A DNA stretch of 64,000 nt from Halodesulfurarchaeum formicicum (GTDB taxonomy: Archaea > Halobacteriota > Halobacteria > Halobacteriales > Halobacteriaceae). A program made the translations under genes and the position numbers. Location of the stretch: the NCBI RefSeq assembly GCF_001886955.1, contig NZ_CP016804.1:806001-870000 (forward strand), read 5' to 3'. Each line of letters opens with the position of its first letter. Positions within the stretch are counted from its first letter, which is position 1. Under the pieces are notes generated by a model. The model searched no databases, was not told where the DNA came from, and saw nothing but the letters and a program-made list of their open reading frames with translations. Shown here in pieces: positions 9,959-58,060 of this stretch.

Positions 9959-10885
9959 TCAGTACTCGACGCCGGCGGTCACACGGTCGAGGACGAGTAC
10001 CAGGCCGCCCCCGAGGATCCCCATCCCCAGCAGAGCGGCGGTCGCCCCTGGCGTCCAAGTCTCAGTGGCCTCAAGAATCTCGCTCCCTGGGGCCCTGAGC
10101 GCGCCAGCCATGAGCGCCACGAGGAAGGTCAGCGTGGCGCTACGGTCGGTTTCGAGCGCCCAGGCGACCACGCGGGCGAAGGCCAACACACCAAGGCCCG
10201 CTCCCAGGGCGAAGACTGCAAGCACTGTTGCCGGCCCGAGGAGGTCCCCACCGCCGACCAGCGCGGTCGTGAGCTCTCGGACCGTCCCCACGATCCGCTC
10301 GTACTGGCCGAGTGCGAGCAGGATGAGCGAGCCGGAGATCCCTGGCAGGATCATCGCGCAGATGGCGACCGCGCCCGAGAGAAAGACCAGGCCGAGCCCG
10401 TCGCCGATCGAGGTGCTGGTCACGCCGGTGAGCACCCAGGCGACGGCGAAGCCGGCCACCGCGATGGCGATGCCTCGCGGGGTGTCGATCGCCATGGCCA
10501 CGCGGAGCACGACCACCGAGGCGGCGATCAGCCCGAAGAAGAAGGCGTAGGTCGGGCCGGGGTAGGACCCCACGGCGAGATGGATCACGTTCGCCGCGGT
10601 GACGGCTGCAGTCACGATCCCGATCCCGAGCACCGCCAGGAAGTGCAGGTCCAGTTCGACGAACCGGTCGACGGCCTCGCGGCGACCCTGGGCCTCGTGG
10701 CTCCCCAGCAGTGCACCGAGGAGCGCCAGCCCGCCCTCGACGTCGAGGCCGGCAATGGCGGTCACCAGGCGGTCGTAGATGCCCGCGATGAGCGCGATCG
10801 TGCCGCCAGAGACGCCGGGGATGGCGTCAGCGGTGCCCATCGCGAAGCCCTTGAGGTAGACCGCGAGCCAGTCTCGGGCGGCCAT
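9959..10885 (-). CDS. DUF368 membrane protein, candidate polyprenyl-phosphate transporter
   Basis: A 308-residue protein with about eight transmembrane helices and the DUF368 hallmark G-x-A-D-x-I-P-G-V-S-G-G-T near the N terminus, repeated as MILPGISGSLILLALG mid-protein. Bacterial DUF368 proteins (PopT) recycle undecaprenyl phosphate across the membrane. The ATG shares one base with the stop codon of aglB (TAATG), so the two are translationally coupled. An inferred role is return of dolichyl phosphate to the cytoplasmic face after AglB uses the lipid-linked glycan. Confidence 0.87.
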   Translation of the reverse strand: MAARDWLAVYLKGFAMGTADAIPGVSGGTIALIAGIYDRLVTAIAGLDVEGGLALLGALLGSHEAQGRREAVDRFVELDLHFLAVLGIGIVTAAVTAANVIHLAVGSYPGPTYAFFFGLIAASVVVLRVAMAIDTPRGIAIAVAGFAVAWVLTGVTSTSIGDGLGLVFLSGAVAICAMILPGISGSLILLALGQYERIVGTVRELTTALVGGGDLLGPATVLAVFALGAGLGVLAFARVVAWALETDRSATLTFLVALMAGALRAPGSEILEATETWTPGATAALLGMGILGGGLVLVLDRVTAGVEY

Positions 10886-13800
10886 TACTCGGTGGGCTGG
10901 GCCGTGACTTCGGGGAGGCCACTCGTGCCGACGGACTCGACGGTCTCGTTCGTGGTGTCAGTCGTGTTCGTGTCGGTCTGGGTGTCCTCCTGGCCCGTGT
11001 CGATCACCTGTTCGTCGAGGGTCACCGTGATGGGCTCGTCGCTCGCTCCGATCACGGTCCCTTCAGGCACGTCGACGGTGGCGCTGTGGGTCGTCATCGT
11101 CTCGTTCGCCCGGTCCACAGTCGTCGGCGTGCTGAACTCGTAGGGGCCGGTGGCCCGCACACTCGTGTTGGTGTACCCGTCCTCGGGGCCCCACGCATCG
11201 TAGTCGGTCGAGGCGTAGGGCAGGGTCATCTCGAAGTCGCCGTTCGCGTCCGTCTCGGCGTGCTGGGTGTAGGTGAACGTGCTGTCGTTGTAGGGAGCGT
11301 TCGACTCCAGCTCGACCGTGGCGGTCACAGTCGAGTCTGCCGGGCCCTCACCCTCGATGGTCGCGCCGGGGACACGCTCGAAGAGCTTGACCCAGGTGGG
11401 CTGTTCGCCCTCGCGGAACTCGAGATTCGCGAGTTTCTGCTGGCGGACGGTGGCGTCCTCGGAGACCCGGACCAGGCGATAGTGCTCCAGGGCTTTGAGG
11501 TCCTCACGCGGGAAGTCGGCCACCCCGCCGACGATCGCGTTGCTGTCGTTTGCGGCGAACTCCTGGGCGGCCTCACTGGACCGGAAGGTCCGGGAGGTGG
11601 CGTAGGTCGGAACCGGGTTCTGGTACTGCTCGTACTCGCGGTTCTCGTACTGGACGACGGTGTTCGCCTCGACCGCGCTCCCGTGGTGGTGATAGAGCCG
11701 GACCATCTGGCTCTCGTAGTAGCGCTGGGTTTTCAGCGTGGTCACGGGTGGCCGGAAGCCCGAGTTGAGGTAGGTCCCGGCGTTCGGGCCCAGGATCTGC
11801 CCGTCGGTCATGTTGTCGTAACTCAGGCTGTCGTTCGCGTTGTAGAAGACCGTGGGCGCGCTGAACTTGCCCTGGGTGTCGACCATCTTGTAGTCGACGG
11901 CCACGTACTGGGTTTCGGCGTCGTCCTCGTCGGTGGCCGCAAGCCGCTCGTTGGCGGTCTCCTCGTCACCGGCGAGCAGGTAGTTCGCGGCCTGGGTGGC
12001 GTGCTGCTGGAACGGGTTCGCGACCGGGATGCGCTCGCCCAGCACCGTGATCCAGTGGCCGTAGTCCCACCAGCTCATCACGCCGTAGGCCCCTTCGGGG
12101 TAGTCATAATCATCACCCTCGGGAATGGCGTAGGTGCCGTCGTAATCGAGTTGATCAGCGTTGCCCGCACCCCCGTAGTTCCCCACTTCGGGGGTGTTGT
12201 TCTGCATCCAGCCCAGGGTGCTGTCCCACTCGGTGACGGCCCCAGGCCCGGCGTTCGCGCCGGTCTGGACGGCGGTTTGCATCTGGACCTGCCGGCCGTC
12301 CTGGTTCGCGAAGCTGATCGGGGCGACCATGGGTGCAAAGAGCAGGAGCACGATGGTCACGACGAGCATGACGTGACTCCAGTCGATCGAGCGCGGGGAG
12401 AGAGTCGCCAGGCTGACGCCGAAGACGTCGATCACGCGCCCGACCGCGTAGGCCGCGAGGATGGCGACCGGGACGACGAGGTAGTAGTTGAACCGGACCT
12501 GGGTGAGTGCCGCGGCGAGCATGAACGCCGCCCAGACCACGAGCAGGATTTGCTCGGTGGGGTAGTCCCCGGCGATCAGTGCGGCGGCGACGGCCAGGCT
12601 GAGCACCAGCAGGCCGAAGAGGTCCCCGCTGAGGCCGATGATGCCCCCGAGGGCCGTGGGAATGGCCGGGAAGCCGACGAAGAGCCCACCCAGCAGGAGC
12701 ACGCCCGCGGCCATGCTGATGCGGCGGGAGTCAGAACTCAGGAGGTGTGGCCGGAGGATCATCCAGAGCCCGCCCAGCAGGGCGAGGAAGAAGGCCGCGC
12801 CGTACTCGTAGAAGAAGGCCTGCCAGGCCCCCAGGCCGAGTCGGTCGGCGCGGGACTGGAGGAAGGGCTGGGCCTCGCTGATGGTGCGGGTGGTTGCACC
12901 CGTGGAGAGGCCGACGATGCGGATGAGTTCATTGAGGATCATTCCGACCAGATCGGGGACGACGAGCAGTCCCGCGCCTGTGCTGACTACCAGGATACCC
13001 AGCACTGCAGGTGGGTAATAGGTCGGTTCGAGGTTCCGTGCCTCCCACTCGCGAGCCAGCCACGAGAGGAAGACTGCTCCGGCGGCGACCACCAGTGGGG
13101 CGATAACTTGGAGTAGTGTGTAGCCCGTCGCGGAAAATTCAAGGTAACGCAGCGGGACGAGCATGAGAATCCCGGTTGTGACCATTGCGATAGTGGCTGG
13201 GATGGCGGTGTGATCCGGGCTGACGCCACTCGTGACGTCACTGGAGAGTGAGACGAGCAGGAAGATGCCGACGATACCCACGAGGAAGACGCCGGGCGGC
13301 CACATCCACATGTACGCGGCCATGGCCACGCCCGCGAGGACGCCCCAGCCGATGACGTTTCGCAGGCCGGCGATATCGAGTTCGAGGAGTTGCTCCCAGA
13401 CCGGGCGTTCGCGGTCGGCGACGGCAAAGGCGACCAAGAGGCCCAGGATCGCCAGGGACATGAAGAGCGGTTCGGCGACGTTGTGGTCCGCTGAACCGAT
13501 GGTGCCACGCTGGAGGAAGAGACCAGGGAGAAGTGCGAGAACGAAGGCAGCGATTACGCCGACGATGTTGCCGCCGAATCTTCGAGCGATGAGGAAGGTC
13601 GGGATCGCAACCAGCGCACCGAAGATTGCGGGGGCGAAGGCCACGACAGTGGCAACTTGCTGGCTCGATGGGTCACCCAGGCCGACAATGAGGGCTGCTG
13701 TGGCGATCAGCTGGTCGAAGAGTGTGCCGAACTGGCCGGAATTGTTTCCTGCGGCGAATCCAGTCCAGACGTCAAATGGCATCGTCGCGAGCCCGTTCTC

Positions 13801-14016
13801 AACGGAGTACTGGACCTGGCGAAGGTGATACCAGGCGTCGTTCCCCGCGAGGTACGTTTTTCCGGGCTGGAGGAATCGATCCGCGGATTGGATCCGGATG
13901 AAGAACATCGTCACGACGGCCAGTACCAGCGCCGGCACGTGGTACCAGCGCCGGAACGTGTCCGTGAGTGCCTCCATGTCGATAGTGGAGCCACTCGCTG
14001 TCGAGTCGTCGCTCAT
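10885..14016 (-). CDS. aglB: Dolichyl-linked oligosaccharide-protein glycosyltransferase AglB
   Basis: The archaeal STT3-type oligosaccharyltransferase, 1043 residues, which moves glycan from dolichol to Asn in N-x-S/T sequons outside the membrane. About 13 transmembrane helices fill the first 600 residues. Catalytic markers are visible: AGNDAWYHLR in the first outer loop, SADHNVAEP (about residue 175), TISEAQPF (about 377, the SVSE-type motif) and WWDYGHWI (about 647). A beta-rich extracellular C-terminal domain ends in a Thr-rich tail. The ATG at 14014-14016 is chosen because a TATA-like box lies about 26-31 nt before it. The DUF368 gene is coupled downstream. Confidence 0.96.
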   Translation of the reverse strand: MSDDSTASGSTIDMEALTDTFRRWYHVPALVLAVVTMFFIRIQSADRFLQPGKTYLAGNDAWYHLRQVQYSVENGLATMPFDVWTGFAAGNNSGQFGTLFDQLIATAALIVGLGDPSSQQVATVVAFAPAIFGALVAIPTFLIARRFGGNIVGVIAAFVLALLPGLFLQRGTIGSADHNVAEPLFMSLAILGLLVAFAVADRERPVWEQLLELDIAGLRNVIGWGVLAGVAMAAYMWMWPPGVFLVGIVGIFLLVSLSSDVTSGVSPDHTAIPATIAMVTTGILMLVPLRYLEFSATGYTLLQVIAPLVVAAGAVFLSWLAREWEARNLEPTYYPPAVLGILVVSTGAGLLVVPDLVGMILNELIRIVGLSTGATTRTISEAQPFLQSRADRLGLGAWQAFFYEYGAAFFLALLGGLWMILRPHLLSSDSRRISMAAGVLLLGGLFVGFPAIPTALGGIIGLSGDLFGLLVLSLAVAAALIAGDYPTEQILLVVWAAFMLAAALTQVRFNYYLVVPVAILAAYAVGRVIDVFGVSLATLSPRSIDWSHVMLVVTIVLLLFAPMVAPISFANQDGRQVQMQTAVQTGANAGPGAVTEWDSTLGWMQNNTPEVGNYGGAGNADQLDYDGTYAIPEGDDYDYPEGAYGVMSWWDYGHWITVLGERIPVANPFQQHATQAANYLLAGDEETANERLAATDEDDAETQYVAVDYKMVDTQGKFSAPTVFYNANDSLSYDNMTDGQILGPNAGTYLNSGFRPPVTTLKTQRYYESQMVRLYHHHGSAVEANTVVQYENREYEQYQNPVPTYATSRTFRSSEAAQEFAANDSNAIVGGVADFPREDLKALEHYRLVRVSEDATVRQQKLANLEFREGEQPTWVKLFERVPGATIEGEGPADSTVTATVELESNAPYNDSTFTYTQHAETDANGDFEMTLPYASTDYDAWGPEDGYTNTSVRATGPYEFSTPTTVDRANETMTTHSATVDVPEGTVIGASDEPITVTLDEQVIDTGQEDTQTDTNTTDTTNETVESVGTSGLPEVTAQPTE

Positions 14017-14139: not shown

Positions 14140-15237
14140 TTATGCATTTCTAAATTTTGAAAAACCATACACGTAGCCGAGACCAACACTCACAGTGGCG
14201 AATAGCAAAAACCCAAGCTGCTGGAGGTTTTTGAGACGCTCCCCTCTGACCAGCTGCTTTAACCGGCTGGGAACTGCGCTCGTAACTAGGTTTTTCAAAA
14301 AGTCTGATTCCGATTCTAACTCAGTTTCACTGTATACCTGCATCCCGCGTTTCGAAACTCCTTGCCAGAACGCGCGTTTGAGGAGAAAAACAGGATCTGT
14401 CCGGAATTCGTACACCTTGTGACCGACCTCCGCGTCCGGATTATACAAAACACCGTGTCCCGTTTCTTCTGCAATACGGCCACATAGGTCTGTCTCCGCA
14501 CTTTGAAGGAGGGACCCACCTTTCGGACCGATCTCTGAGTTGAAGCCCCCGATTTCGTCAAAAACTGACTTTTTGACCGAGAGGTTAGACGCGAACGTGT
14601 TTCGAACCTCCGTCATTTCCTCCGGGTGGCCGGCATATGTGACACCAATGAGCCAGTAAAACTCCGGTGGGAGAAACTGGGGGTGTCCAGCAATCCAAAT
14701 TGGAACCATCTTTCCCCCTGCAGCGACCGCATCGTATTCAGTATAGCAGCGGACTAATTCTTGTAACCAATCTTCATCCGCGACAGCATCGTCGTCGAAA
14801 AACGCCACGATCTCCCCTTCAGCTTTTGCTACTGCTCGGTTACGGCTGCTTGCAGCGCCAACGTTGGTCTCGTTTACGAGAATGGAGACTGCCGATTTGT
14901 CCTCCCAACGATCACGAAGGCGTTTGCCGAGTTCCTCTCGCCCATCTACGACTACAATGACATCTCTCTCAGAATAGTTCCCGTCAAGTATACTTTGGAC
15001 CCCTTCGTTGATATCAGGAAATCGTTCAGGGTCATAAGCCGTCACAATGACCGTGACGTGCGGTTCCTTGTTCGTTGACACGCGATTGGATTTTCTTTCG
15101 TTGGCAAAATCTTTTGTGCTACGAATTGGGCGGTGAGTTTCTGATAAATCTATAGAGTGTTTGTTTTGGGATCGATCTAATGGGAAGTCAACCTTTGACC
15201 TGAATCGGGCAGTTGTCGAAGTAGGGAGCTCATCCAC
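14140..15237 (-). CDS. GT2 glycosyltransferase, AglG/AglI-like
   Basis: A 365-residue family-2 glycosyltransferase. The GT-A domain starts near residue 60 (VTVIVTAYD), with NETNVGAASSRNRAVAKA and the metal-binding FFDDDAVADEDWL (DDD motif). EIGGFNSEI and a later ETDLCGRI supply acceptor-loop and base residues. A C-terminal hydrophobic segment (FLLFATVSVGLGYVYGF) anchors it to the membrane. The architecture fits haloarchaeal dolichyl-phosphate sugar transferases such as AglG and AglI. The first 45 residues are atypical, so a start at an internal GTG (V-S-T-N-K) is possible. Codons are AT-richer than in aglB; this gene opens the AT-rich island. Confidence 0.85.
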   Translation of the reverse strand: MDELPTSTTARFRSKVDFPLDRSQNKHSIDLSETHRPIRSTKDFANERKSNRVSTNKEPHVTVIVTAYDPERFPDINEGVQSILDGNYSERDVIVVVDGREELGKRLRDRWEDKSAVSILVNETNVGAASSRNRAVAKAEGEIVAFFDDDAVADEDWLQELVRCYTEYDAVAAGGKMVPIWIAGHPQFLPPEFYWLIGVTYAGHPEEMTEVRNTFASNLSVKKSVFDEIGGFNSEIGPKGGSLLQSAETDLCGRIAEETGHGVLYNPDAEVGHKVYEFRTDPVFLLKRAFWQGVSKRGMQVYSETELESESDFLKNLVTSAVPSRLKQLVRGERLKNLQQLGFLLFATVSVGLGYVYGFSKFRNA

Positions 15238-15392
15238 GGCTGTAGCTGTTTCCGTTGATTTGGGACGACTGGTACCAATCTGCTGTAATGTGTGGTGGCG
15301 GAGGTAACTTCATCCAGTTAGTCAGTAGGAAACTTCGGGCTCTCTGTGGAATTCGAAGACGACATACCGGAGAGTCCGTAATAGAATTTTTA

Positions 15393-16433
15393 ATGAAGAT
15401 ACTGTGGCTTCGCCCGTCCAAAGGAGATAATATCAGTGTTCGGCGGGAGCGGATCGCCTCCGAGTTACGGGAACGAGGTTACACCGTCGACATCGTCGAT
15501 GCTTCTGGATGGGATGCCCCAAAGGCCATCTGGAAGGCGTTGACCGGTTCCTATGATATTATTGCGGGTAACGTTCGAGTTGGGCTCTATCTTGGATATC
15601 CGATTGCTCGACTTCTTCGGACTCCGTTCTTGGGCGACGTGAGCGACCCGATTTCGGATATCGACTATCTTCCTGAACCGCTGTTCCGGTTCTTCGAACG
15701 GTACGAATGGTGGGTGTTGGAACGAGCTGATGCGACGGTGTTTGTCTACAAATCGAGCTATCAAGAAGCACTTGACCGTGGGATAGACGACGCAGTTCGA
15801 CTTCCGAACGCCGTGGATTACGAGGCCTTTGCCGATCCCAATCCGGAAGCAGTGCGAGATGCGGAGTCGATTTTACGGGAGGAAGGCGTTGATCTTGATA
15901 ATCCGATCGCGATATATCTCGGGGTTCTGACACCGAGTTACAAGATCGAAGCGATTCTCGAGACGGCCCAACACGCACCGGAGTGGGAGTTTGTCTTTAT
16001 TGGGGAAGGCGATCTGGCTGATACTGTTCGGCAGGAAGCACAGTCACAGGACAACGTCCACTATCCGGGTGCGTTCGAATACCGACTCATGCCTGGATTT
16101 CTTGCACATGCAGACGTCGGTTTCTGTTTCAAGGATGCTGAACAGCCGTTGAAGCTCAAGGAGTACGGCGCGGCAGGGCTTCCTACTATCGTTCGGCCTG
16201 GGGAGTTGTCGAAATGGTACGATGATAATGAGTTGGCGTTTTTAGAGCCAGATCCCGAAGCCATTGTTGATCGGTTAGATGAATTGGGGAGTAATCAAGA
16301 AATGTACGCGACTTACAGCGAGGCAGGACGTGAGATTGGGAGTGAATGGAGCTGGGAGGAGATTGCAGAAGGTTATATTCGAATTTTTGAGGACAAATTC
16401 CAAGATTTAGTTTCCCATTCTGAACTGCTTTAA
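15393..16433 (+). CDS. GT4-type glycosyltransferase
   Basis: A 346-residue GT-B glycosyltransferase. MKILWLRPSKGDNISVRRERIASELRERG is the N-terminal acceptor domain, PNAVDYEAF the interdomain sugar-nucleotide loop, and EQPLKLKEYGAAGLPTIV the E-x7-E-like donor site. The ATG at 15393 is preferred over the longer frame from 15255, which lacks family features. It diverges from the GT2 gene across a 155-bp gap. Donor and acceptor are unknown; context points to surface-glycan assembly. Confidence 0.82.
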   Translation: MKILWLRPSKGDNISVRRERIASELRERGYTVDIVDASGWDAPKAIWKALTGSYDIIAGNVRVGLYLGYPIARLLRTPFLGDVSDPISDIDYLPEPLFRFFERYEWWVLERADATVFVYKSSYQEALDRGIDDAVRLPNAVDYEAFADPNPEAVRDAESILREEGVDLDNPIAIYLGVLTPSYKIEAILETAQHAPEWEFVFIGEGDLADTVRQEAQSQDNVHYPGAFEYRLMPGFLAHADVGFCFKDAEQPLKLKEYGAAGLPTIVRPGELSKWYDDNELAFLEPDPEAIVDRLDELGSNQEMYATYSEAGREIGSEWSWEEIAEGYIRIFEDKFQDLVSHSELL

Positions 16434-17106
16434 GCACCCAAATAGACTTAAAACCGGGACAAAAGAAATTGTTACAACGAACCGAATAATGTTAGACTAT
16501 TTCCGGAGTTTTTGTTAACTCTATGAGGGACAACAGTAAATATGAACAGGTGACAGGTACGTTACTGAACGTAAGCACATCAGTTGTATAACCAAAAAAT
16601 TCACTGGATGAAAATGTCTCGATCAATTGGACATTATCTCATATGTTCGGCCCAAGTTTGAACATATCGATCAGAAACACGTCGAGTGATGTAACCGATA
16701 AGTTAGCCAATATTAGCTCAAGGTAGATGAGGATGAACACGAAGATGGCGACCCGAGGTTGTAGAAGTTATTAATCCCTTTTTCGTTACGACGAAGTTTG
16801 ATGCGAGAGTCCCTGAACTGATCTGTGGCGTCCACGAAGTCCTGATAGAGCTAATATGTCAATCCGAGAATATGACTGTCTCGTTGTATCGAGAAGCGCG
16901 TCGACATTCCGCCGATGGGCGACAATGTTGTTTTCCGAATCAGATATGAGTGTACCCGTGCGAAGACGCATCTACCACTATGGTTGGTACTTGACCCACA
17001 GAAGTACTCTGACTCCGCGGCACAGGCAAAATACAGGCCCCGGGCTCGGGGGAACATGCTAAAACTTACTTGTCCTCCATGGTTAACATGGTCTAGAAGG
17101 GTTAAA
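16434..17106 (+). other. Long AT-rich intergenic stretch before the Kdo operon
   Basis: About 670 bp with no convincing gene. Reading frames here are short and overlap on both strands, and none has a family motif. The upstream half is AT-rich with stop codons in all frames. The 200 bp before 17107 is more GC-rich and may be a gene remnant. The promoter of the Kdo-type operon must lie here; I could not fix it to a single box. Confidence 0.5.
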
Positions 17107-18300
17107 ATGAGTCAATTAGTTTTTTCAGATGTCGATGGCGTCCTCACAGACTCGAAAATCAATATCGGCCGGGATGGCGAGGTCTTCAAATCGTTTGACG
17201 TAAAAGACGGATACGGAATCGTCCAGTGGCGGGAACAGGACGGCCGCGACTTCGCGATCGTCACCTCAAGGGAATCCCAAGCTGTTGCTAATCGGGCGTC
17301 GGAACTTGGTGTGGACGAGGTCCACCAAGGGGTGGAAAATAAAAAACAAAAAATCGAGGAGATCACACTTCGTCTCGGATTCGATCTCGCGGATTCGGTT
17401 TACATTGGCGACGATCTGACGGACCTACAGGCTATGAAAACTGTTGGGACGGCTTGTTGTCCCGCAGACGCGGCTCAAAAAGTAAAAAACGAGTGTTCGT
17501 ACGTCAGCCAGTACAACGGTGGCGACGGAGCCGTTCGGGACATCCTGAACCACTTAGAAACAGCTTCTCAAATAGCACTTGGCGTTATTCCCGCTCGATA
17601 TGGGTCAACGCGTCTGCCCGGTAAACCATTAGTCGAGATAGCTGGCAAGCCGATGATTCAGCATGTATACGAGCGTGCGAGCAGAGCGAACTTGCTTGAC
17701 GACCTCATCGTTGCAACAGACGATGAACGCATTGTTGAGGCGGTCGAGGCGGTCGGCGGCACCGCAATGATGACCGAAGCTGATCACCCGACAGGAACGG
17801 ATCGGGTGGCAGAAGTGGCTGCGAATGTCGGCGCGGACTTTACGATCAATATCCAGGGCGACGAGCCGCTAATTAACCCTGATCTCATCGACGCAATTGT
17901 GACGGCTCTTAGAGAGAACTCTCCGAAAGTCGCAACGCCGATCTCCCCAATTGAAGATGAATCACTCCTTAACGACGAAAACACGGTCAAGGTTGTAACC
18001 GACGCCGACGGAAGGGCGCTTTACTTTTCGCGGTCGAAAATACCATCAGGTGGAGAAACAGGAACGACGTACAAACATATCGGGCTGTATGGATTCGAGA
18101 CAGAGCTCCTACTCAAATACATCAATATGGAGTCAGAACTCGAATCCGTTGAAGACCTCGAACAACTTCGGCTGCTTGAAAATGGGTACGAAATACAAAC
18201 TGTTGAGACAGACTACAACTCAAAAGAGGTTAACGTGGAAAGTGATATAATGAGGGTGGAAAAAGAAATAGAACAGATACACACCCATGGAACTCAGTAA
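17107..18300 (+). CDS. Fused Kdo-8-phosphate phosphatase (KdsC) and CMP-Kdo synthetase (KdsB)
   Basis: A 397-residue two-domain enzyme. Residues 1 to about 155 are a KdsC-type HAD phosphatase without cap: FSDVDGVLTD with nucleophile Asp8 and Asp10, TSRES, and GDDLTD at 101-106. Residues about 156-397 are KdsB: IPARYGSTRLPGKPL (161-175), QGDEPLI (250-256), KHIGLYGF and the ESVEDLEQLRLLENG block that marks CMP-Kdo synthetases rather than sialic-acid ones. It would dephosphorylate Kdo-8-P and activate Kdo with CTP. The ATG at 17107 begins the HAD fold; upstream codons in frame do not fit. The stop overlaps kdsA by 14 nt. Confidence 0.9.
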   Translation: MSQLVFSDVDGVLTDSKINIGRDGEVFKSFDVKDGYGIVQWREQDGRDFAIVTSRESQAVANRASELGVDEVHQGVENKKQKIEEITLRLGFDLADSVYIGDDLTDLQAMKTVGTACCPADAAQKVKNECSYVSQYNGGDGAVRDILNHLETASQIALGVIPARYGSTRLPGKPLVEIAGKPMIQHVYERASRANLLDDLIVATDDERIVEAVEAVGGTAMMTEADHPTGTDRVAEVAANVGADFTINIQGDEPLINPDLIDAIVTALRENSPKVATPISPIEDESLLNDENTVKVVTDADGRALYFSRSKIPSGGETGTTYKHIGLYGFETELLLKYINMESELESVEDLEQLRLLENGYEIQTVETDYNSKEVNVESDIMRVEKEIEQIHTHGTQ

Positions 18301-19105
18301 CAACATTTCCGTTTCTAACGAAGACGATTTTTTCTTGATCGCGGGTCCGTGTGCGATCGAATCAGAGGAACAAGTGCTGAAGACAGCACGGGAACTGAAA
18401 GACATCACTGACCGCCACGACATCGACCTGATTTTCAAGAGTTCGTTCGACAAAGCTAACCGGTCGTCGATCAGTTCGTATCGTGGTCCCGGGATGGAAC
18501 GGGGACTCGAAATCTTACAGCGGGTCAAAGACGAGTACGACCTTCCGGTTATAACTGACTTCCACGTCCCTGAACAGGCAGAGCCCGCTGCAGACGTCGT
18601 TGACGCTCTCCAGGTGCCAGCGTTCCTCTCACGGCAAACCGATATGCTCACTGCGGCTGGAGAGACGGGACTCCCGATCAACGTCAAGAAGGGGCAGTTT
18701 CTTGCTGCGGACGGTATGGATAACGTCGTGAACAAGATTGAATCGACGGGGAACGAACGGGTGATGCTCTGTGAACGCGGGGCGATGTTTGGATACAATA
18801 ACCTCGTCGCTGATATGCGGAATTTAGATATTATGAAGGGACTAGACAAGCCGGTTGTGTTCGACACGACACACTCGGTGCAACGGCCGGGCGCACAGGG
18901 CGACTCCAGTGGGGGGGATCGTCGGTTTGCGCCGACGTTAGCGCGGGCCGCACTTGGTGTTGGGGTGGCTGGTATTTTTGCCGAAGTGCACCCTGATCCG
19001 TCGTCAGCCAAATCCGACGCGGCGACACAACTTCCGCTCGATGATTTCGAATCGCTCCTAAAACAATGGAAAGCGATTGATAAAGCGGTGAAACATGGCA
19101 AGTGA
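18287..19105 (+). CDS. kdsA: 3-deoxy-D-manno-octulosonate-8-phosphate synthase
   Basis: A 272-residue TIM-barrel enzyme condensing arabinose-5-phosphate with PEP to give Kdo-8-P. Markers are AGPCAIESEE (Cys22), FKSSFDKANRSS (50-61), QVPAFLSRQTDML, NVKKGQFLA, FGYNNLVADMR and the TTHSVQ, EVHPDP and KSDAATQLPL blocks. Cys22, His196, Glu233 and Asp244 line up with the four metal ligands of the Aquifex enzyme, so this should be the metal-dependent class. The usual Cys of AFLCRQTD is Ser here. It overlaps the genes on both sides (14 and 11 nt). NeuB-type sialic acid synthases lack the SSFDKANRSS block, so that alternative is unlikely. Confidence 0.94.
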   Translation: MELSNNISVSNEDDFFLIAGPCAIESEEQVLKTARELKDITDRHDIDLIFKSSFDKANRSSISSYRGPGMERGLEILQRVKDEYDLPVITDFHVPEQAEPAADVVDALQVPAFLSRQTDMLTAAGETGLPINVKKGQFLAADGMDNVVNKIESTGNERVMLCERGAMFGYNNLVADMRNLDIMKGLDKPVVFDTTHSVQRPGAQGDSSGGDRRFAPTLARAALGVGVAGIFAEVHPDPSSAKSDAATQLPLDDFESLLKQWKAIDKAVKHGK

Positions 19106-20087
19106 TCAGGACGGGCTGGCCAAGACAGATGTTCGTGATGCCGTCTATCACACGCTATCGGTTCAAGAAAGTTCAATTTCCACGCTACAGGATACGGAGA
19201 CGGTCGCGGAGATAACCCGTGTGGCGGAAGTGATTAGCGAAGAAGATGGTCGGGTGGTATTTTCCGGAATTGGAAAGTCCGGGGACGTGGGCAAGAAGGT
19301 CTCATCGACCTTCAATAGTATAGGGGTGTCTTCGCACTTCATTCATCCTGTCGAGGCTCTCCACGGAGACTTGGGGGCTCTTTCAGCGGAAGACGTTGTT
19401 GTTCTTATCTCGAATAGCGGAAACACGGACGAGATGGTAGAGCTACTGCAATTTCTTCGCTCGTTCGATGCGACGACTGTATCGATCACGTCCGATCCTG
19501 AATCGAAATTAGGCACAAGGGCGGATTATCATATCAACACGAAAATAGAAGAGGAAGGAGCGGTCGTGGAGTTAGTCCCGATGGCCAGTGCTACTTCCAC
19601 GATGGTCATCGGAGACTGTATCGCTAATGCACTGATGGCAAATCGGGATTTCAGCGAACAGGATTACGGACACTTCCATCCTGGGGGAACAATTGGGAAG
19701 CGTTTGTTGCTTACCGTTGAGGATTTACTACACAAGAATATTCCAAAAACTCGGCCAGCAGACACACTAGCTAAAGTTGCTCTGAAAATAAGTGAGGGCG
19801 GTAAAGGGATTGCTGTGGTTCAGGACGATGATGACTATGTGAAAGGGGTCTTAACGGACGGTGATATACGCCGATTTATTGAATCTGGTACTGACTTCCA
19901 TGATGTGGTAGCCGAAGAAGTGATGATTACGGATCCGATTACGACTTCCGTTGATATGGCCGCAATACGGGCTTTAGAAGTTATTGAGGAGAAAAATATT
20001 TCACAGCTTGTGGTGACTGATGATTCTGACCAGTTCTTAGGTGTCGTTCACATCCATGACATTATGGAGAGAGGGTTGACGGCATAA
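19095..20087 (+). CDS. kdsD: Arabinose-5-phosphate isomerase
   Basis: A 330-residue KdsD/KpsF protein that interconverts ribulose-5-phosphate and arabinose-5-phosphate, the first step toward Kdo. The SIS domain shows SGIGKSGDVGKK (57-68), HPVEALHGDLGAL and SNSGNTDE (107-114), then GHFHPGGTIGKRLL, the family's catalytic His loop. Two CBS domains fill the C-terminal third, each ending in a GVLTDGDIRR- or GVVHIHDIM-type strand. Length and order match bacterial KdsD. It overlaps kdsA by 11 nt and ends one base before the next gene. Confidence 0.93.
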   Translation: MASDQDGLAKTDVRDAVYHTLSVQESSISTLQDTETVAEITRVAEVISEEDGRVVFSGIGKSGDVGKKVSSTFNSIGVSSHFIHPVEALHGDLGALSAEDVVVLISNSGNTDEMVELLQFLRSFDATTVSITSDPESKLGTRADYHINTKIEEEGAVVELVPMASATSTMVIGDCIANALMANRDFSEQDYGHFHPGGTIGKRLLLTVEDLLHKNIPKTRPADTLAKVALKISEGGKGIAVVQDDDDYVKGVLTDGDIRRFIESGTDFHDVVAEEVMITDPITTSVDMAAIRALEVIEEKNISQLVVTDDSDQFLGVVHIHDIMERGLTA

Positions 20088-20088
20088 T

Positions 20089-21372
20089 ATGGACGATATT
20101 CTATTTATCTCAGATACCTCGGATGGGCAGAACTGGGGCTGTTACGAAACCAGTAGACAGTTGAGAAACCTTCTATTGGAGTCAGTGGACATACAATATA
20201 CAGTTTTTTTGAACGAAATCAGGGACCCAATCCGCACTACCGTTCCCCCGTCATTATCTGATGTTCAGTATTTAATCGGAGAGTCTTCGAAGATATTCGA
20301 AAGTTCTTCCCCAATATATAGGCGATTTCTTGATCATGGGTTACGACCAGCAAAACACGTATTTGATATTTATCCTAGAGTTATGGACCAATTTGAAAAC
20401 AAGTCCGAACTGTTTCTCAAATCAAAATTGTTCGGCAAGTATTTCCCAGACCCTGGCAATATCGACCAGGTCGTTATTAATGGTGAAGGGAGCATCCATG
20501 GTAACCGGATTAAATCTCGAATATTATTGTTCTTTGCCTACATATGGCGGGTGAAGCTAGACAAGCCCACACACATTGTCAATCATACTCTGCAAATTGA
20601 CACACCTGAATTGAAGGAGATGATTAAGGTAATATACCCGCAATTGAATTCTATCGCTTTTAGAGAGCCAATCTCAAAATTAGAATATCACTCTAAGATT
20701 GGTGATACAAATAATACTATTCAGGCAGCTGACACCGCTTGGCTGTTAGACGACTGCTTAACAAAGACCGATCTGAACACCATTTTGCGTCAAGGTGGAA
20801 TGTCGGTCTGGCATCCTACAGAAATCCAACCTAGTTTTGATTTCACTGATCGATATGTATGTGTTAGTGGGGGTTCAGGGTTTGGCCACGGGAAAGAGGA
20901 TTCAGAAAAAATAGCCGAAATAATACGGTCACTATTAGATAACAATATTGACGCTAATATACTCCTTGTAGCTCCTGCACAACACGATGAGCATATTCTT
21001 CTTAGAGTGGCTGAAGGCTTCAATCTACCTTTAGCAAAGGTTAGCAATAACTCTCTTGTTGGCGCATCAATAATCGGAAATTCCGAACTGTACTTAGGTG
21101 GTAGATGGCATGGAAGTATATTTGCATTACTAAACGGTGCTAGGTTGGTTAACTTTAAGGCAAACACATTTAAAATGAGGGGGCTGAAAGATATGACAAA
21201 CCACCCATACCAAATCTATCCTTCTCAACAAGCTGGTAACAAAGCAGACGAAATAGCTAAATCTGTTATAAGTGGATTAGACAAGAGTATTGGAGATGGT
21301 CAGGAAAAGATGATAAAATCACTTCAAAGTATGAGTAGGAAAAATTTAGATGGCGTACGCGAGGATGTTTAA
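20089..21372 (+). CDS. Polysaccharide pyruvyl transferase family protein
   Basis: A 427-residue protein of the PF04230-like family, which adds pyruvate from PEP to sugars as ketals, or in some members acts as a glycosyltransferase. VVINGEGSIHGNR near residue 130 and GGRWHGSIFALLNGARLVNF near 345 are the two family blocks. It starts one base after kdsD ends, so it belongs to the same transcript. Codon use is markedly AT-rich (ATA, TTA, AGA common), unlike the core genes of this genome, which points to transfer. Confidence 0.8.
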   Translation: MDDILFISDTSDGQNWGCYETSRQLRNLLLESVDIQYTVFLNEIRDPIRTTVPPSLSDVQYLIGESSKIFESSSPIYRRFLDHGLRPAKHVFDIYPRVMDQFENKSELFLKSKLFGKYFPDPGNIDQVVINGEGSIHGNRIKSRILLFFAYIWRVKLDKPTHIVNHTLQIDTPELKEMIKVIYPQLNSIAFREPISKLEYHSKIGDTNNTIQAADTAWLLDDCLTKTDLNTILRQGGMSVWHPTEIQPSFDFTDRYVCVSGGSGFGHGKEDSEKIAEIIRSLLDNNIDANILLVAPAQHDEHILLRVAEGFNLPLAKVSNNSLVGASIIGNSELYLGGRWHGSIFALLNGARLVNFKANTFKMRGLKDMTNHPYQIYPSQQAGNKADEIAKSVISGLDKSIGDGQEKMIKSLQSMSRKNLDGVREDV

Positions 21373-22821
21373 ATGGTGAATAATAACCCAAAGTCCGACA
21401 GCTCAAGCAGCATAAGGAATGTAGTACTATTATGCCTAGACTCGGTTCGTAAAGACTACTTCGACAGATACGCAAAGAGGTTGAACGAACAATCTGACGT
21501 GGTGTATAACGGTGCGCGTGCGGCTAGTGGGTGGAGCTTACCGAGTCACGCCAGCATGTTCACTGGAGAACTCCCGCATTCGCATGGTGCTCATGCTCAC
21601 TCAGATGGATTTGAACCCATAAGTATAACGGACACCTTTTTATCTGACCTGCCAAACCATTCTATACTAGGAGTGAGCACAAATACATTTGCGGGTGAGG
21701 CTTATGGATTTGATAAATACTTTGACGTTTTCTCAGAAGTACCTCATAATTCGTTCCAACTTTCTAAAGGAGTTTCTCCTGAAGATTTTGGGAAAATAAA
21801 TAAGTTTGAATACTTGAAAGAATCAATAAGGGACAATGACACTATTTACAGTCTGATAAATGGTATAATATCGAAGTTCGGTATGTATGAGCGCATATTT
21901 TCAGGTAGACCATGGCCCGAAATCAACGACAATGGAACAGCCCGTTCACTCCAATTGGCTGAGTCTCATATAACGAATACTGAGTCAGCAGAAAATCCTG
22001 TATTTGTCTTTTTGAATTTAATGGAGTCCCATTCCCCGATGTATGCACATTATAATTACGACAGTACAATTCATACCGTTCCAAATTCATGGACATCCGC
22101 AAATGGCCCAAAAAACAGGGAAGTTTCGTTTGACGCTGATAGCTACCGAGAATATATTAATAATTGGACAGATATTTATAGTGCATCTATTGACTACCTT
22201 GACAGAGTCATAAGTGATTGGATAGAAAGAATCAATACACTCACCGAAAATGAAACCACAATAGTAGTCACCTCAGACCATGGTCAAAATTTGGGAAATC
22301 CATCAGAAGAGGAGTTGTTTGGACATCAATCGAGTCTTAGCGAAGGGATTCTCCATGTTCCTTTACTCATCATTAACCCACCAGATGGCTATCAGGAACA
22401 AGTGGACAGATTGATTAGTCATTTAGAGATTGGTTCGCTGATTACCCACTTGGCGAACGAAGACATGTACAAATTCAGCAATAACAGTGTCACTAGTGAG
22501 GTTGTCGGAACAATAAAAAGTCACAAAAATAACCTTACGTATTGGGATCGCCCTATCCGCTGTTCGTATAAAGATGAAACAAAAAAAGTACTCTGGGATG
22601 GTTTAGAAACGACAAAAATTTATGACATAGATGAAAGTATACCGAACGTACAAAATGAAATAGACATTATTGAAAACATGACTCCCGAAGATGACGATAT
22701 TTTGTTTGAGGTCTCGATAAAGGAGATGAAACGAAAGGCTCTAAGGGATAGATTATCATCAGGTAATCAAGATCTCTCCGATGATGTACAATCAAGGCTA
22801 TCCGACCTGGGATATGTTTGA
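21373..22821 (+). CDS. Alkaline-phosphatase superfamily sulfatase-like enzyme
   Basis: A 482-residue enzyme with the alkaline phosphatase/sulfatase fold. VVLLCLDSVRKDYF carries the first metal Asp; SGWSLPSHASMFTG is the nucleophile region, with Ser in place of the C-x-P-x-R Cys of classical sulfatases; VVTSDHGQNLG provides the metal Asp-His pair. No signal peptide is seen, so it would act in the cytoplasm unless it leaves by another route. It could remove or transfer sulfate or phosphoryl groups on glycans. Its ATG follows the previous stop with no gap. AT-rich codons as in its neighbours. Confidence 0.72.
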   Translation: MVNNNPKSDSSSSIRNVVLLCLDSVRKDYFDRYAKRLNEQSDVVYNGARAASGWSLPSHASMFTGELPHSHGAHAHSDGFEPISITDTFLSDLPNHSILGVSTNTFAGEAYGFDKYFDVFSEVPHNSFQLSKGVSPEDFGKINKFEYLKESIRDNDTIYSLINGIISKFGMYERIFSGRPWPEINDNGTARSLQLAESHITNTESAENPVFVFLNLMESHSPMYAHYNYDSTIHTVPNSWTSANGPKNREVSFDADSYREYINNWTDIYSASIDYLDRVISDWIERINTLTENETTIVVTSDHGQNLGNPSEEELFGHQSSLSEGILHVPLLIINPPDGYQEQVDRLISHLEIGSLITHLANEDMYKFSNNSVTSEVVGTIKSHKNNLTYWDRPIRCSYKDETKKVLWDGLETTKIYDIDESIPNVQNEIDIIENMTPEDDDILFEVSIKEMKRKALRDRLSSGNQDLSDDVQSRLSDLGYV

Positions 22822-22867
22822 ACAACTAAATAGGCAAATAGATCTGTTTCCGTAGTTAATTTCCACT

Positions 22868-23785
22868 ATGTCAATGAAAATGTTACAGAACAGATATGAG
22901 GGAGAGAGGGTTTTTTTGATTGGTAATGGTCCAAGTTTGGATAAAACGCCGCTTGATCGGCTAAATAGTGAATACAGTATAGCTTTGAATGGGATAAATG
23001 ACATATATTCGGAAACTACATGGAGGCCTTCTTTTTACGTTCTCTTACTTGAGGAATTTGAGAAGAACTATGATACCTATTTCATTAATAATTTTAGGTC
23101 AGGCGTAGAATGTATAACATTACGCCAACATAAAGGGAAATTTGGTGATAGGGAAGACATTCATTATGTCAAAAAGAAGAAGCTCAAATGCAATCCGGTG
23201 GAATCCGGTAAAAACTTCCACGAATTAAGTAAAGAGGAAATTCAATCTATGAGGCTCTGTGATCTATATGAGTTCTGGCCTAATGATATCTCTAAATGTC
23301 TATACACATATCACTCGATGTATGCAATTATTCAAATCGCCATATATATGGGTTTCAAAGAAATCTACCTTCTTGGCTGTGATTTGGGCTATAGTACCTA
23401 TGATCCACATATGATATTTAACGAGGGATTAAACCCTCACGGCTGGAAGGAGGGTAAGAACGCCTACTTGCTAGAAAGCTATCGAGAAGATATACTAATA
23501 AAATCAGTTATAAATGAGATCATTTTCAAGATTCTCTCCTCTCCGATTGGAGAACTTGCTGGTCAGGTCTTAGATTATGTGAATGAATTAGATGACGCAA
23601 ACCGGTTCGGTTCGCATACACAGCTTCAACCCGAAGACCTCACACATGTGAACGACGAAATAACGAAAAGTCATATTGCGGCTCAACGAATTGCTTCTGA
23701 TCAAGGAGTTGATATTTATAATGCAACAATTGGGGGAGAGCTAGAAGTATATCCCCGTGTATCACTGGAAAATGTAGTAGATTGA
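22868..23785 (+). CDS. DUF115/MptE-Maf-like protein, copy 1 (candidate sugar transferase)
   Basis: A 305-residue protein of the DUF115 family. VFLIGNGPSLDKTPL (15-29), LNGINDIYSETTWRPSFYVL and MYAIIQIAIYMGFKEIYLLGCDLGY form the nucleotide-binding half; IYNATIGGELEVYPRV is the family's C-terminal block. The same fold core occurs in Maf proteins, which transfer CMP-activated nonulosonic acids to flagellin, and resembles GT42 sialyltransferases; another branch, MptE, makes pterin diphosphate. Neighbouring CMP-Kdo genes favour a CMP-sugar transferase, but this is inference. The following gene is a diverged tandem copy. AT-rich. Confidence 0.72.
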   Translation: MSMKMLQNRYEGERVFLIGNGPSLDKTPLDRLNSEYSIALNGINDIYSETTWRPSFYVLLLEEFEKNYDTYFINNFRSGVECITLRQHKGKFGDREDIHYVKKKKLKCNPVESGKNFHELSKEEIQSMRLCDLYEFWPNDISKCLYTYHSMYAIIQIAIYMGFKEIYLLGCDLGYSTYDPHMIFNEGLNPHGWKEGKNAYLLESYREDILIKSVINEIIFKILSSPIGELAGQVLDYVNELDDANRFGSHTQLQPEDLTHVNDEITKSHIAAQRIASDQGVDIYNATIGGELEVYPRVSLENVVD

Positions 23786-23792
23786 TAATAAT

Positions 23793-24722
23793 ATGGATCT
23801 TATTGAAATTAGAAACGAATACTCGGGCAGAATTTTCTTAATCGGGAGCGGGCCAAGTCTCAAAGAGACACCGCTTGAGTTACTCCAGGATGAATATACA
23901 TTTGCCGCGAATAGCATTTCGGATATATTCAGTGAAACGGAGTGGCGACCGTCATTTTACGCCTGCGTTGACGACGGAGTTGACACAAGTTACTGTGAAG
24001 AAGCAATAGAACTCGGGATACCATGCTTTTTTCCGGAAAAGACTACCCGAGGAACCGCACTAATCGAATCTGTCCCAACCAAGGATAACACTCTGTTTTT
24101 CGAAAATATCGATCTCCGAGATCGCGCCGACTTGGATATATCCACGTTCCAGTTGAATTCTGACTCAATAACGAGCTATCATGACGTTTGGTCTGAGGAC
24201 ATCACAGAGGTCGTGTATGGATATAACACAGTGATGTACCAGATGATGCAAATATCGCTTTACATGGGGTTCGATGAAATCCATCTCGTGGGAAACGACC
24301 TCTACGACGTTTTTGATGGGTATTTGCTGTTTCCAGAAGCTGCAGACCCAGCTGTATTCCATGGAGATGGTGAATCGATACTCCAGAATGGAATCGAATT
24401 TCTACATGATAGTAATTACCTCCTGAAGTCGTTTGCCAATGCGTTATCGTATAAAACGATTAAATCTAAAGTATTCAGCAAACTGTATCCGCAGCTTTCA
24501 AACCATATCGAATTAATTGACCAGGATAATTACTTCTCAGAAGACTATTCCAATGGGGAAATCATAACGCCAGAAAAGAACCGTAGACATATTCTTGCCC
24601 ACGAACTGGCCAAATCAGTCTCTGATGAACTTGGATTCGACATCTATAACGCAACTGTGGGCGGGCATCTGGAAGTTTACCCAAGAACAGATATTACAAG
24701 CGTTGTTGAGGATGGAGAGTAA
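23793..24722 (+). CDS. DUF115/MptE-Maf-like protein, copy 2 (candidate sugar transferase)
   Basis: A 309-residue paralogue of the preceding protein, 7 bp downstream. It has IFLIGSGPSLKETPLELL, ANSISDIFSETEWRPSFYAC, MMQISLYMGFDEIHLVGNDLY and IYNATVGGHLEVYPRT in the same order. The middle (about 60-140) differs most, as expected if the two act on different acceptors. Codons are less AT-rich than in copy 1, so the pair may have diverged before arriving here. Function as for copy 1: a CMP-sugar-dependent transferase is possible, pterin metabolism is the alternative. Confidence 0.7.
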   Translation: MDLIEIRNEYSGRIFLIGSGPSLKETPLELLQDEYTFAANSISDIFSETEWRPSFYACVDDGVDTSYCEEAIELGIPCFFPEKTTRGTALIESVPTKDNTLFFENIDLRDRADLDISTFQLNSDSITSYHDVWSEDITEVVYGYNTVMYQMMQISLYMGFDEIHLVGNDLYDVFDGYLLFPEAADPAVFHGDGESILQNGIEFLHDSNYLLKSFANALSYKTIKSKVFSKLYPQLSNHIELIDQDNYFSEDYSNGEIITPEKNRRHILAHELAKSVSDELGFDIYNATVGGHLEVYPRTDITSVVEDGE

Positions 24723-24807
24723 CGATTAAATTCTACTCCAGCGACAAGATCCTCTGTGATGCTAATAGACCAATTACGTTTAGTAAATGTATGCGAGAGC
24801 TATTATT

Positions 24808-26007
24808 ATGGAACAATTAGGAATTCTGTACTACGTTAGTTCGTTTCCGAAGCTCTCTGAGAGTTTCATACTAAATGAAATCACCGAACTTCACCACCGG
24901 GGGCATAATATCGCAGTCTTTGCCCAAAACGACCCAGGAGAAAATATTACGCATGAGGAATACGAAGACATTGACGTTCCGATTTACTATGTGGATGCCT
25001 CGTATACTGATTTCCCCCAATTACTCTCTAAGAAATCCGCTCAAATGGCACTAGGCCATGCAACAGACGGGCTTTTCAAGCATTTCTCACCAAAGCGAAT
25101 TGGCCACAACTTACTCTTAGGCAAGCAAAGTGCTGAGTTCATCGAATCACTTGATTTCGACATTGATATCGTTACTGCTCACTTTGCGAGTCCCTCCAGA
25201 ATTGGTGCGATGCTCGCTGCACGCTATTACGGTATTCCATGTACGGTTACCGCCCATGCATACGAAATATTCTCTTCTCCGATTGTTCCTCAGATAAAGT
25301 ATATCTGCGATAGTATGGATCACGTGGTTGTCCCATCTGAATACAATCGGAACTATCTTCGCGAAGAGATCGGGATTGCAAACGATATAACGGTTGTTCC
25401 AGCGACGACACAGGTTGAGAAGTTCGAACCGACAGCCCTTACCGTTGAGAACCGACTGTTAACTGTTGCTCGGTTGGTTGAAAAGAAAGGCTATCCGTAT
25501 GGTATTGAGGCCGTGAATAAGCTCATTGAACAAGGGTACGATGTCGAATATCACATCGTTGGAACTGGTGATAGGAAAGACCGCTTACAGCAACAGGTGA
25601 AAGAGTACGGCATTGAAGGTCACGTCGAGTTCTTGGGTCACGTCTCCGATGAACGACTCCAGAAAGAACTGAGTGAAGCCGCTGTCTTTGTATTGCCTTG
25701 CGTTATTGCTGAGGACGGCGATCGAGATGCAATGCCGGTCGTTCTCAAGGAAGCGATGGCGTCAGAAACCGCGTGCGTCTCGACAACCGTCTCTGCGATT
25801 CCGGAACTCATTACTGACGCCCATAACGGGTTGTTGGTTCCAGAGAAAGAACCTAATGAGTTAGCGTCTGCAATCCAAGAACTCCTTGATAATCCGGAAA
25901 AACGGAAAGCCATAGCAACGAATGGGCGAGAAACCGTCCATAATAAGTTTGATATTTCTAAGTCTGTAGATACATTAGTCGAGGTATTTCAGTCCTTGCA
26001 GAACTGA
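24808..26007 (+). CDS. GT4-type glycosyltransferase
   Basis: A 399-residue GT-B enzyme. FPKLSESFILNEITEL is the typical N-terminal acceptor loop of polysaccharide GT4 enzymes; TAHAYEIF and VPSEYNRNYL lie in the linker region; AEDGDRDAMPVVLKEAMASE carries the E-x7-E donor site. Two starts are possible: 24787, or the ATG at 24808 chosen here because the Rossmann strand starts right after it. It closes the AT-rich cluster and has intermediate base composition. Donor unknown. Confidence 0.83.
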   Translation: MEQLGILYYVSSFPKLSESFILNEITELHHRGHNIAVFAQNDPGENITHEEYEDIDVPIYYVDASYTDFPQLLSKKSAQMALGHATDGLFKHFSPKRIGHNLLLGKQSAEFIESLDFDIDIVTAHFASPSRIGAMLAARYYGIPCTVTAHAYEIFSSPIVPQIKYICDSMDHVVVPSEYNRNYLREEIGIANDITVVPATTQVEKFEPTALTVENRLLTVARLVEKKGYPYGIEAVNKLIEQGYDVEYHIVGTGDRKDRLQQQVKEYGIEGHVEFLGHVSDERLQKELSEAAVFVLPCVIAEDGDRDAMPVVLKEAMASETACVSTTVSAIPELITDAHNGLLVPEKEPNELASAIQELLDNPEKRKAIATNGRETVHNKFDISKSVDTLVEVFQSLQN

Positions 26008-26438: not shown

Positions 26439-27179
26439 ATGCAAGCAGTCGTTCTCGCCGCCGGCAAGGGCACCCGCCTTCGCCCCCTCACCGACGACAA
26501 ACCAAAGGCCATGGTGGATGTCGACGGCCAACCACTCGTCGCCCACGTCTTCGACCGCCTCGTCGAACTCGATGCCTCCGAATTAATAGTAATCGTCGGC
26601 TACCAGAAGGAGGATATCATCAGCCACTTCGGCGACGAGTACCGCGACACGCCAATCACCTACGCCCACCAGCGCGAACAGAACGGCCTCGCGCATGCCC
26701 TCCTCACCGCCGAGGAACACATCGACGATGACTTCATGCTCATGCTCGGGGACAACATCTTCCAGGCCAACCTCGAGGACGTGATCAACAGACAACGAGA
26801 GAACCGCACCGACGCGGCCTTCCTGGTCGAGGAAGTCCCCTCCGAGGAGGCCTCCCGCTATGGCGTCTGTGATACCAATGGCTACGGCGAGATCGTTAAC
26901 GTGATCGAGAAACCCGCGGACCCGCCCTCGAACCTCGTGATGACCGGCTTCTACACCTTCACGCCCGCGATCTTCCACGCCTGCCATCTCGTCCAGCCCT
27001 CCGACCGCGGCGAATACGAACTGAGCGACGCTATTGACTTGCTGATCGAATCCGGCCGTACCATCGACGCGATTCGCATGGACGGCTGGCGTATCGACGT
27101 GGGCTATCCCGAGGACCGCGATAAAGCCGAAGAACGGCTGCAGGAAGAACGCCAGGACGCGACGGGGGAGATCGCTTGA
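26439..27179 (+). CDS. aglF: Glucose-1-phosphate uridylyltransferase AglF
   Basis: A 246-residue nucleotidyltransferase making UDP-glucose for glycan assembly. The N terminus has the nucleotide loop VVLAAGKGTRLRPLTDDKPK; LGDNIF carries the catalytic Asp; VIEKPADPPSN and [19 protein letters not shown] follow. Length and motifs match haloarchaeal AglF. The partner UDP-glucose dehydrogenase AglM lies at 33633, separated by an insert of toxin and transposon genes. Three degraded copies of this gene's 3' end recur within that insert. Confidence 0.88.
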   Translation: MQAVVLAAGKGTRLRPLTDDKPKAMVDVDGQPLVAHVFDRLVELDASELIVIVGYQKEDIISHFGDEYRDTPITYAHQREQNGLAHALLTAEEHIDDDFMLMLGDNIFQANLEDVINRQRENRTDAAFLVEEVPSEEASRYGVCDTNGYGEIVNVIEKPADPPSNLVMTGFYTFTPAIFHACHLVQPSDRGEYELSDAIDLLIESGRTIDAIRMDGWRIDVGYPEDRDKAEERLQEERQDATGEIA

Positions 27180-57917: not shown

Positions 57918-57934
57918 ATTTCCCCCATCTCGGA

Positions 57935-57954
57935 CCACGCTGTAACCAGCGTGG
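57935..57954 (+). terminator. Hairpin after array copy 1
   Basis: CCACGCTG-TAAC-CAGCGTGG is a perfect 8-bp hairpin followed by GTTT, 18 bp after the stop. The same hairpin follows array copy 4 at 63704. Confidence 0.65.
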
Positions 57955-57959
57955 GTTTC

Positions 57960-58060
57960 AAACCTGTTTTCGTTTCGACCGATTGAACCCAACAGCTCGG
58001 ACGTGACCAAACTCATCTATCCCTACCCAAGCTGGTCACGTTGAGATCGCGCCGATATTT
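57960..58060. repeat. Conserved spacer element, copy 1
   Basis: Related to the spacers at 61608-61704 and 63720-63811. Shared parts are GGACGTGA, TACCCAAG and GGTCACGT. The arms GACGTGA and TCACGT(C/T) are inverted relative to each other about 30 nt apart. Confidence 0.6.

Follow-up and report, generated by a model that had tools for sequence, protein, structure and literature searches.

The stretch of the Halodesulfurarchaeum formicicum genome analysed here (contig NZ_CP016804.1; 64,000 nucleotides, hereafter the window) carries a glycan gene island bordered by the genes aglB and aglF. Within the island lies kdsCB, a single gene for a KdsC-type phosphatase joined to a CMP-Kdo synthetase, followed by kdsA and kdsD. 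The features of the locus are listed below.

10885..14016, minus strand: aglB, archaeal oligosaccharyltransferase, left island border (TIGR04154, 834.5 bits, cut-off 450)
14140..15237, minus strand: AglG-like glycosyltransferase beside aglB (NF041394, 373.7 bits, below the cut-off of 440)
15387..16433, plus strand: GT4-type glycosyltransferase upstream of the cassette (PF00534)
17107..18300, plus strand: kdsCB, fusion of a KdsC-type phosphatase with CMP-Kdo synthetase, 397 aa (family models, conservation, structure model)
17107..17562, plus strand: KdsC (HAD, YrbI-type) half, residues 1-152 (TIGR01670 over its cut-off; residue counts)
17578..18297, plus strand: KdsB half, residues 158-397, with Asn376 in place of the second Mg-A aspartate (NF003952, TIGR00466; column counts; 1gq9 alignment)
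18287..19105, plus strand: kdsA, Kdo-8-phosphate synthase (TIGR01362, 389.9 bits, cut-off 314; NF003543, 403.2 bits, cut-off 242)
19095..20087, plus strand: kdsD/kpsF-type arabinose-5-phosphate isomerase with SIS and two CBS domains (TIGR00393, 267.5 bits, cut-off 203.7)
20089..21372, plus strand: polysaccharide pyruvyl transferase-like protein (PF04230), 43% identical to the gene in the same place in genome G094
21373..22821, plus strand: sulfatase-superfamily protein (PF00884)
22868..23785, plus strand: MptE-like/DUF115 protein, candidate CMP-Kdo-dependent glycosyltransferase (PF01973 just over its cut-off)
23793..24722, plus strand: second MptE-like protein, 34% identical to the first (PF01973 below its cut-off; weak WaaZ match)
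24787..26007, plus strand: GT4-type glycosyltransferase (PF00534), 42% identical to a gene in the island of the congener G002
26439..27179, plus strand: aglF, UTP-glucose-1-phosphate uridylyltransferase, right island border (NF041313, 435.7 bits, cut-off 400), 98% identical to that of the congener

The island (14140-26007) has a GC content of 45%, versus 64% and 61% in its flanks. The flanks are collinear in G002 (aglB 89% and aglF 98% identical, genes beyond them mostly more than 90%), but the roughly 12 kb that separate aglB from aglF in this congener contain other genes, most of them low in GC, one of which encodes a Wzx-like flippase (C1:1761217-1773179). From this comparison, the interval between aglB and aglF looks like a fixed site at which glycan cassettes are exchanged.

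Three other features of the window were recorded. Near the right edge of the island lies a TnpB-family RNA-guided nuclease gene (28983-30254, minus strand; NF040570), a 42% relative of which is found near the same place in G002. Another apparent fusion, a 951-aa frame at 5800-8655, matches GlpA (residues 5-493) and GlpB (554-950). Four tandem paralogues at 56322-63692 have common SRRKTLAALGTIGAASAG N-termini, and the first of them matches the SipW-dependent signal model TIGR04088.

A KdsC-KdsB fusion conserved in six haloarchaeal genomes

Positions 17107-18300 (plus strand) translate as a single 397-aa frame with no internal stops. The frame can be extended upstream to 16915, giving 461 aa, but translation probably starts at the ATG at 17107, where three of the four complete aligned relatives also begin; the fourth has a three-residue extension. 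The KdsC-type HAD phosphatase occupies residues 3-151 and KdsB residues 158-390, both above the curated cut-offs of Pfam and NCBIfam. The initial annotation, which had placed KdsC and KdsB in one polypeptide with a boundary at residues 155/156, is therefore borne out, the boundary being correct to within a few residues. No bifunctional KdsC-KdsB model is among the 24 NCBIfam models listed, and a phmmer search of the PDB with the fusion retrieved KdsB chains and KdsC chains, one set for each half, none of the 35 distinct sequences covering both.

An AlphaFold2 model of the 397-aa protein, calculated as a monomer from a mixed alignment (16 of the 26 available KdsC rows and 10 of the 76 available KdsB rows), reached a mean pLDDT of 87.2 and a pTM of 0.79. 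Foldseek matched it to the CMP-Kdo synthetases 1gqc and 2y6p and to the KdsC structures 2r8x and 3i6b, with no structure covering both domains among the 50 rows listed. In the model, the final KdsC helix (140-154) appears to continue into the first KdsB strand (157-163), in a block with a pLDDT of about 91. On this point the earlier claim that the domains meet without a linker is nearly right, but 13 residues separate the C-terminal KdsC motif GGxGAVRxIL from the KdsB motif IPARY in all five complete copies.

In a survey of 391 haloarchaeal genomes, the first pass of which scored at most four candidates per genome, the KdsC-KdsB architecture was found in six genomes of three families, at 68-85% identity. 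The complete copies are those of the window genome (G000), G094 (81%), G191 (81%), G319 (78%) and G101 (68%), and the G279 copy (85% and 82%) is interrupted by the ends of contigs C29 and C37. In the window genome the fusion itself is the sole match, with no second copy; it is absent from two other genomes of the genus, G001 (72% complete) and G002. The dN/dS ratios of both halves are 0.06-0.17 in the six pairs without G101 (dS is saturated in every G101 pair) and indicate that purifying selection acts on both halves.

These data bear on the possibility that a sequencing or frame error merged two neighbouring genes. One Burkholderia plasmid, with the order kdsA-kdsC-kdsB-kpsF, does have separate but overlapping kdsC and kdsB genes in the same order, which a lost stop could fuse. 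However, an error of this kind was ruled out by the recurrence of the architecture across genomes, the same spacing in five complete copies from different genomes and the low dN/dS in both halves, and we give it practically no credence. The KdsC-KdsB fusion is genuine.

A standalone KdsB-like protein is present in seven further haloarchaea (L003, L004 and L025-L029). It branches elsewhere in the KdsB tree, and KdsA has no match in these seven genomes, which were therefore left out of the count of Kdo makers. In the two such loci that were read (L004 and L025), a 2-hydroxyacid dehydrogenase-like gene adjoins the standalone gene.

Catalytic residues and the predicted route to CMP-Kdo

The KdsC half scores 130.8 bits with TIGR01670 over residues 3-151 (cut-off 106.95) and 125.5 with the stricter KdsC equivalog PRK09484, which is below its cut-off of 208. 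KdsC enzymes are tetramers in which the tail of a neighbouring subunit lies at the active site, and their HAD signature consists of DxD, Ser/Thr, Lys, DD and a C-terminal GGxGA tail. All of these catalytic residues and the tail are found in the haloarchaeal protein: D8, D10, K79 and D102, as well as G138, G139 and G141, are invariant in 39 of 39 aligned rows, position 53 (T53) is Thr in 30 and Ser in 9, and D103 is Asp in 37. The half has the same fold as the bacterial enzyme (E. coli YrbI, 2r8x), to the chains of which it is 36-37% identical.

The KdsB half likewise has the fold of bacterial CMP-Kdo synthetases, with 43% identity to KpsU (1gqc) and 40% to A. aeolicus KdsB (2y6p). It exceeds the cut-offs of NF003952 (288.8 bits, cut-off 193), TIGR00466 (190.7 bits, cut-off 155.2), NF009905 and NF003950, and stays below that of the KdsB equivalog NF003948 (212.9, cut-off 281). 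Family models, HAD residue counts and fold matches thus support the domain identities proposed initially and, with them, the view that the two halves catalyze consecutive steps.

One metal ligand differs. The available text on A. aeolicus KdsB names D95 and D219 as the Mg-A aspartates and terms D219 strictly conserved (PMC3149649). The first of them corresponds to D252 of the fusion, kept in 100 of 100 KdsB rows, and the second position is Asn376, a column with 91 Asp, 8 Asn and 1 Lys. Asn376 pairs with position 225 (Asp) of KpsU 1gq9 in the alignment, and the offset at the end of the 2y6p match (residues 160-389 against 6-232) lets us infer that it takes the place of D219. The eight Asn rows are the five complete fusions together with L062, L102 and the archaeal L127, that is, 5/5 complete fusions versus 3/95 other KdsB rows. 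Since Asn376 replaces the second Mg-A aspartate, the half was classed as a KdsB variant; its remaining KdsB motifs are intact.

The substitution in every complete copy could mean that the KdsB metal site is lost, leaving chiefly a phosphatase (or, conversely, that only the synthetase is active). We consider a single active half improbable, as the other KdsB motifs including D252 are intact, dN/dS is low in both halves, the same Asn occurs in three other KdsB rows, and the window genome has no other match to the fusion. The Asn in those three rows makes synthetase activity possible for the fusion as well, though it may be altered.

Together, kdsCB, kdsA and kdsD encode the full CMP-Kdo gene set (KdsD, KdsA, KdsC and KdsB) within 17107-20087. 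Successive genes overlap, kdsCB and kdsA by 14 bp, kdsA and kdsD by 11 bp; KdsD equivalog models, including PRK10892, remain below their cut-offs. This three-gene, 3-kb cassette is predicted to cover all steps from Ru5P to CMP-Kdo: the N-terminal HAD domain would dephosphorylate Kdo-8-phosphate and the C-terminal domain would couple the released Kdo with CMP derived from CTP, while the Kdo-8-phosphate synthase and the arabinose-5-phosphate isomerase would complete a self-contained route. The gene order is the same in all six genomes (with kdsCB of G279 cut at contig ends). Six of the 391 haloarchaeal genomes have a KdsA match (TIGR01362), the same six that have the fusion; in the sampled haloarchaea, KdsA hence never occurs without it.

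The product could instead be another, related ulosonic acid with eight or nine carbons, for instance of the amino-Kdo or KDN type. A KDN-9-phosphatase model matches the KdsC half with 111 bits (below its cut-off of 180), and a change in the handling of metal or substrate may lie behind Asn376. We regard this as unlikely, if somewhat less so than the loss of one activity: KdsA scores far above the cut-offs of its equivalog models, an arabinose-5-phosphate isomerase-type kdsD is present, Kdo enzymes are the best matches of both domains, and the nine island proteins scanned include no aminotransferase or oxidoreductase.

As for the advantage of a fusion to a Kdo pathway, Kdo activation had been described initially as an unfavourable step that benefits from channelling. 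The usual description is a different one: CMP-Kdo formation is termed rate-limiting, and CMP-Kdo labile. Joining the phosphatase to the synthetase may give channelling, or no more than a fixed stoichiometry and joint inheritance.

Domain order among fusions and origin of the cassette

In bacteria, KdsC and KdsB are generally two polypeptides, whereas here they form one, archaeal, with Asn in place of a Mg-A aspartate. Fusions with KdsB first and KdsC second were found in Herbaspirillum frisingense (L104, 426 aa) and on a Pseudomonas plasmid (P0002, 428 aa). Like the haloarchaeal protein, they unite both activities in a single chain, and kdsA and kpsF are neighbours, but the domain order is reversed; they are 34-35% (KdsC half) and 49-52% (KdsB half) identical to it. 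The joining of KdsB and KdsC is therefore not unique, and the unusual part is the KdsC-first order. NeuA-type CMP-sialate synthetases with a C-terminal HAD domain also unite a cytidylyltransferase and a KdsC-like HAD in one chain; in the archaeal examples G480, G484 and G508 the cytidylyltransferase comes first, the neighbour looks like NeuB on reading, and the sugar is presumably a nonulosonate. The reversed order that the initial annotation had ascribed to sialate-type fusions is thus confirmed and extends to the two KdsB-KdsC cases. A further fusion of Kdo genes lies between kdsB and kdsA at L134:964-2010 (G485, same phylum, other class), where an archaeal KdsC carries a KpsF-like tail with CBS domains.

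The KdsC-first fusion was found at none of 80 bacterial genome-contig loci (the best 80 of 546 relatives, none of them titled as a haloarchaeon). It was equally absent from the matches listed in three bacterial phyla (299, 109 and 82 genomes), a result that in one of the three sets leaves aside some frames of more than 400 aa, for example those of G695, G687, G683, G718, G651, G767 and G822. None was found in 23 plasmids, 24 phages and 88 viral contigs, and the one relative from the viral contigs, L170, matches residues 159-391 only; one record listing behind this survey covered the best 40 of 115. A common bacterial KdsB architecture, which would have spoken against the initial interpretation, was accordingly not found in the bacterial, plasmid, phage and viral sets examined. 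Among the literature matches listed, in a collection that leaves most subscription journals outside its coverage, there was no report of a KdsC-KdsB fusion or of Kdo in haloarchaea; one of them, in its available text, concerns the missing KdsC of Rickettsia (PMC5615194). The chemistry of the fusion is ordinary; its domain order and its domain of life are unusual.

Quick tree searches without bootstrap placed the fusions in one clade on a long stem, both for KdsC (39 rows, SH-aLRT 99) and for KdsB (100 rows, SH-aLRT 100), so that a single fusion event suffices. Ectobacillus antri is among the nearest bacterial rows in both trees, via weak branches. The order kdsB-kdsA-kdsD-kdsC was observed at 24 of 82 bacterial loci (80 genome-contig and two plasmid loci, many incomplete). 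From overlapping kdsC and kdsB genes like those of the Burkholderia plasmid, a KdsC-first fusion could arise by loss of a stop. Residence in a salt-in host is expected to give proteins an acidic composition, and the net charge of the fusions is -17 to -28 in the KdsB half, versus a mean of -5.8 in 81 bacterial rows, and -6 to -11 in the KdsC half, versus -2.7 in 27. The cassette was probably gained by lateral transfer and has been adapted to salt. A comparable case outside the Gram-negatives is the Gram-positive Bacillus coahuilensis m2-6, for which the available text describes a likewise laterally acquired Kdo island with kdsB, kpsC, kdsD, kdsC and kdsA (PMC4744853); that island, too, is low in GC, with kpsC in it, but it is bacterial and its kdsB and kdsC are separate.

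Candidate Kdo transferases and surface glycans

The genes after the cassette vary. Pyruvyl transferase-like and MptE-like genes, the latter with weak WaaZ similarity, are common to the window and G094; G319 has a methyltransferase-like gene with a 64% relative in G279, G191 has weak sulfatase-like and Capsule_synth genes, and G101 has a GT61-type gene. Our guess, from weak matches, is that the Kdo transferase of the window may be an MptE-like protein. The model of WaaZ (Kdo III transferase) gives 24.1 bits on the product of 22868..23785, far below the cut-off of 200; a PDB profile search with this protein had a best E-value of 0.98, and its structure model, from a two-row alignment, has a mean pLDDT of 31.7 and was set aside. 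Maf and MptE-like proteins have the DUF115 domain in common. A Maf glycosyltransferase accepting CMP-Kdo is reported in the available text of PMC11339370.

In G191, G279 and G319, a gene of PF05159 (Capsule_synth), the KpsC/KpsS family of Kdo transferases in bacteria, is found at a distance of 4-15 kb from the cassette; no recognised KpsC/KpsS gene was found in the window genome, G094 or G101. Three of six cassette genomes thus have such a gene near the cassette, and 24 of the 385 remaining genomes have one anywhere (Fisher p 0.005). PF05159 occurs in 27 of the 391 haloarchaea, 20 of which also have a CMP-sugar synthetase-like match, within 20 kb in 19 (Fisher p 8e-15). This association hints that archaeal PF05159 proteins may use CMP-activated ulosonates. 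A related known system is the legionaminic acid pathway of Halorubrum sp. PV6, where a CMP-ulosonate sugar feeds a haloarchaeal S-layer N-glycan (PMC6137143). Its product is a nine-carbon nonulosonate, unlike that predicted for the Kdo cassette, and Kdo is not mentioned in the available text of that paper.

The reading that we favour, and hold to be probable, is that kdsCB encodes an acquired, salt-adapted, bifunctional CMP-Kdo enzyme which, with the kdsA/kdsD cassette in an exchangeable island, would feed archaeal surface glycans; the predicted activities would yield Kdo, and the genome-variable downstream transferases would place it on the S-layer/archaellin N-glycan or on a surface polysaccharide. 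A bolder version is only tentative: some haloarchaea may build Kdo into N-glycans or surface polysaccharide via a transferable cassette, one enzyme passing Kdo from site to site and working with Asn in place of a metal aspartate, and Kdo may serve as an exchangeable surface antigen.

Kdo is a textbook sugar of bacterial envelopes that is also found in plants; with a whole salt-adapted Kdo cassette next to aglB, its range would widen to the surface glycans of archaea. Whether linking the phosphatase to the synthetase accelerates or protects the formation of CMP-Kdo is a question for which nature provides a test case in this fusion and its conserved Asp-to-Asn change.
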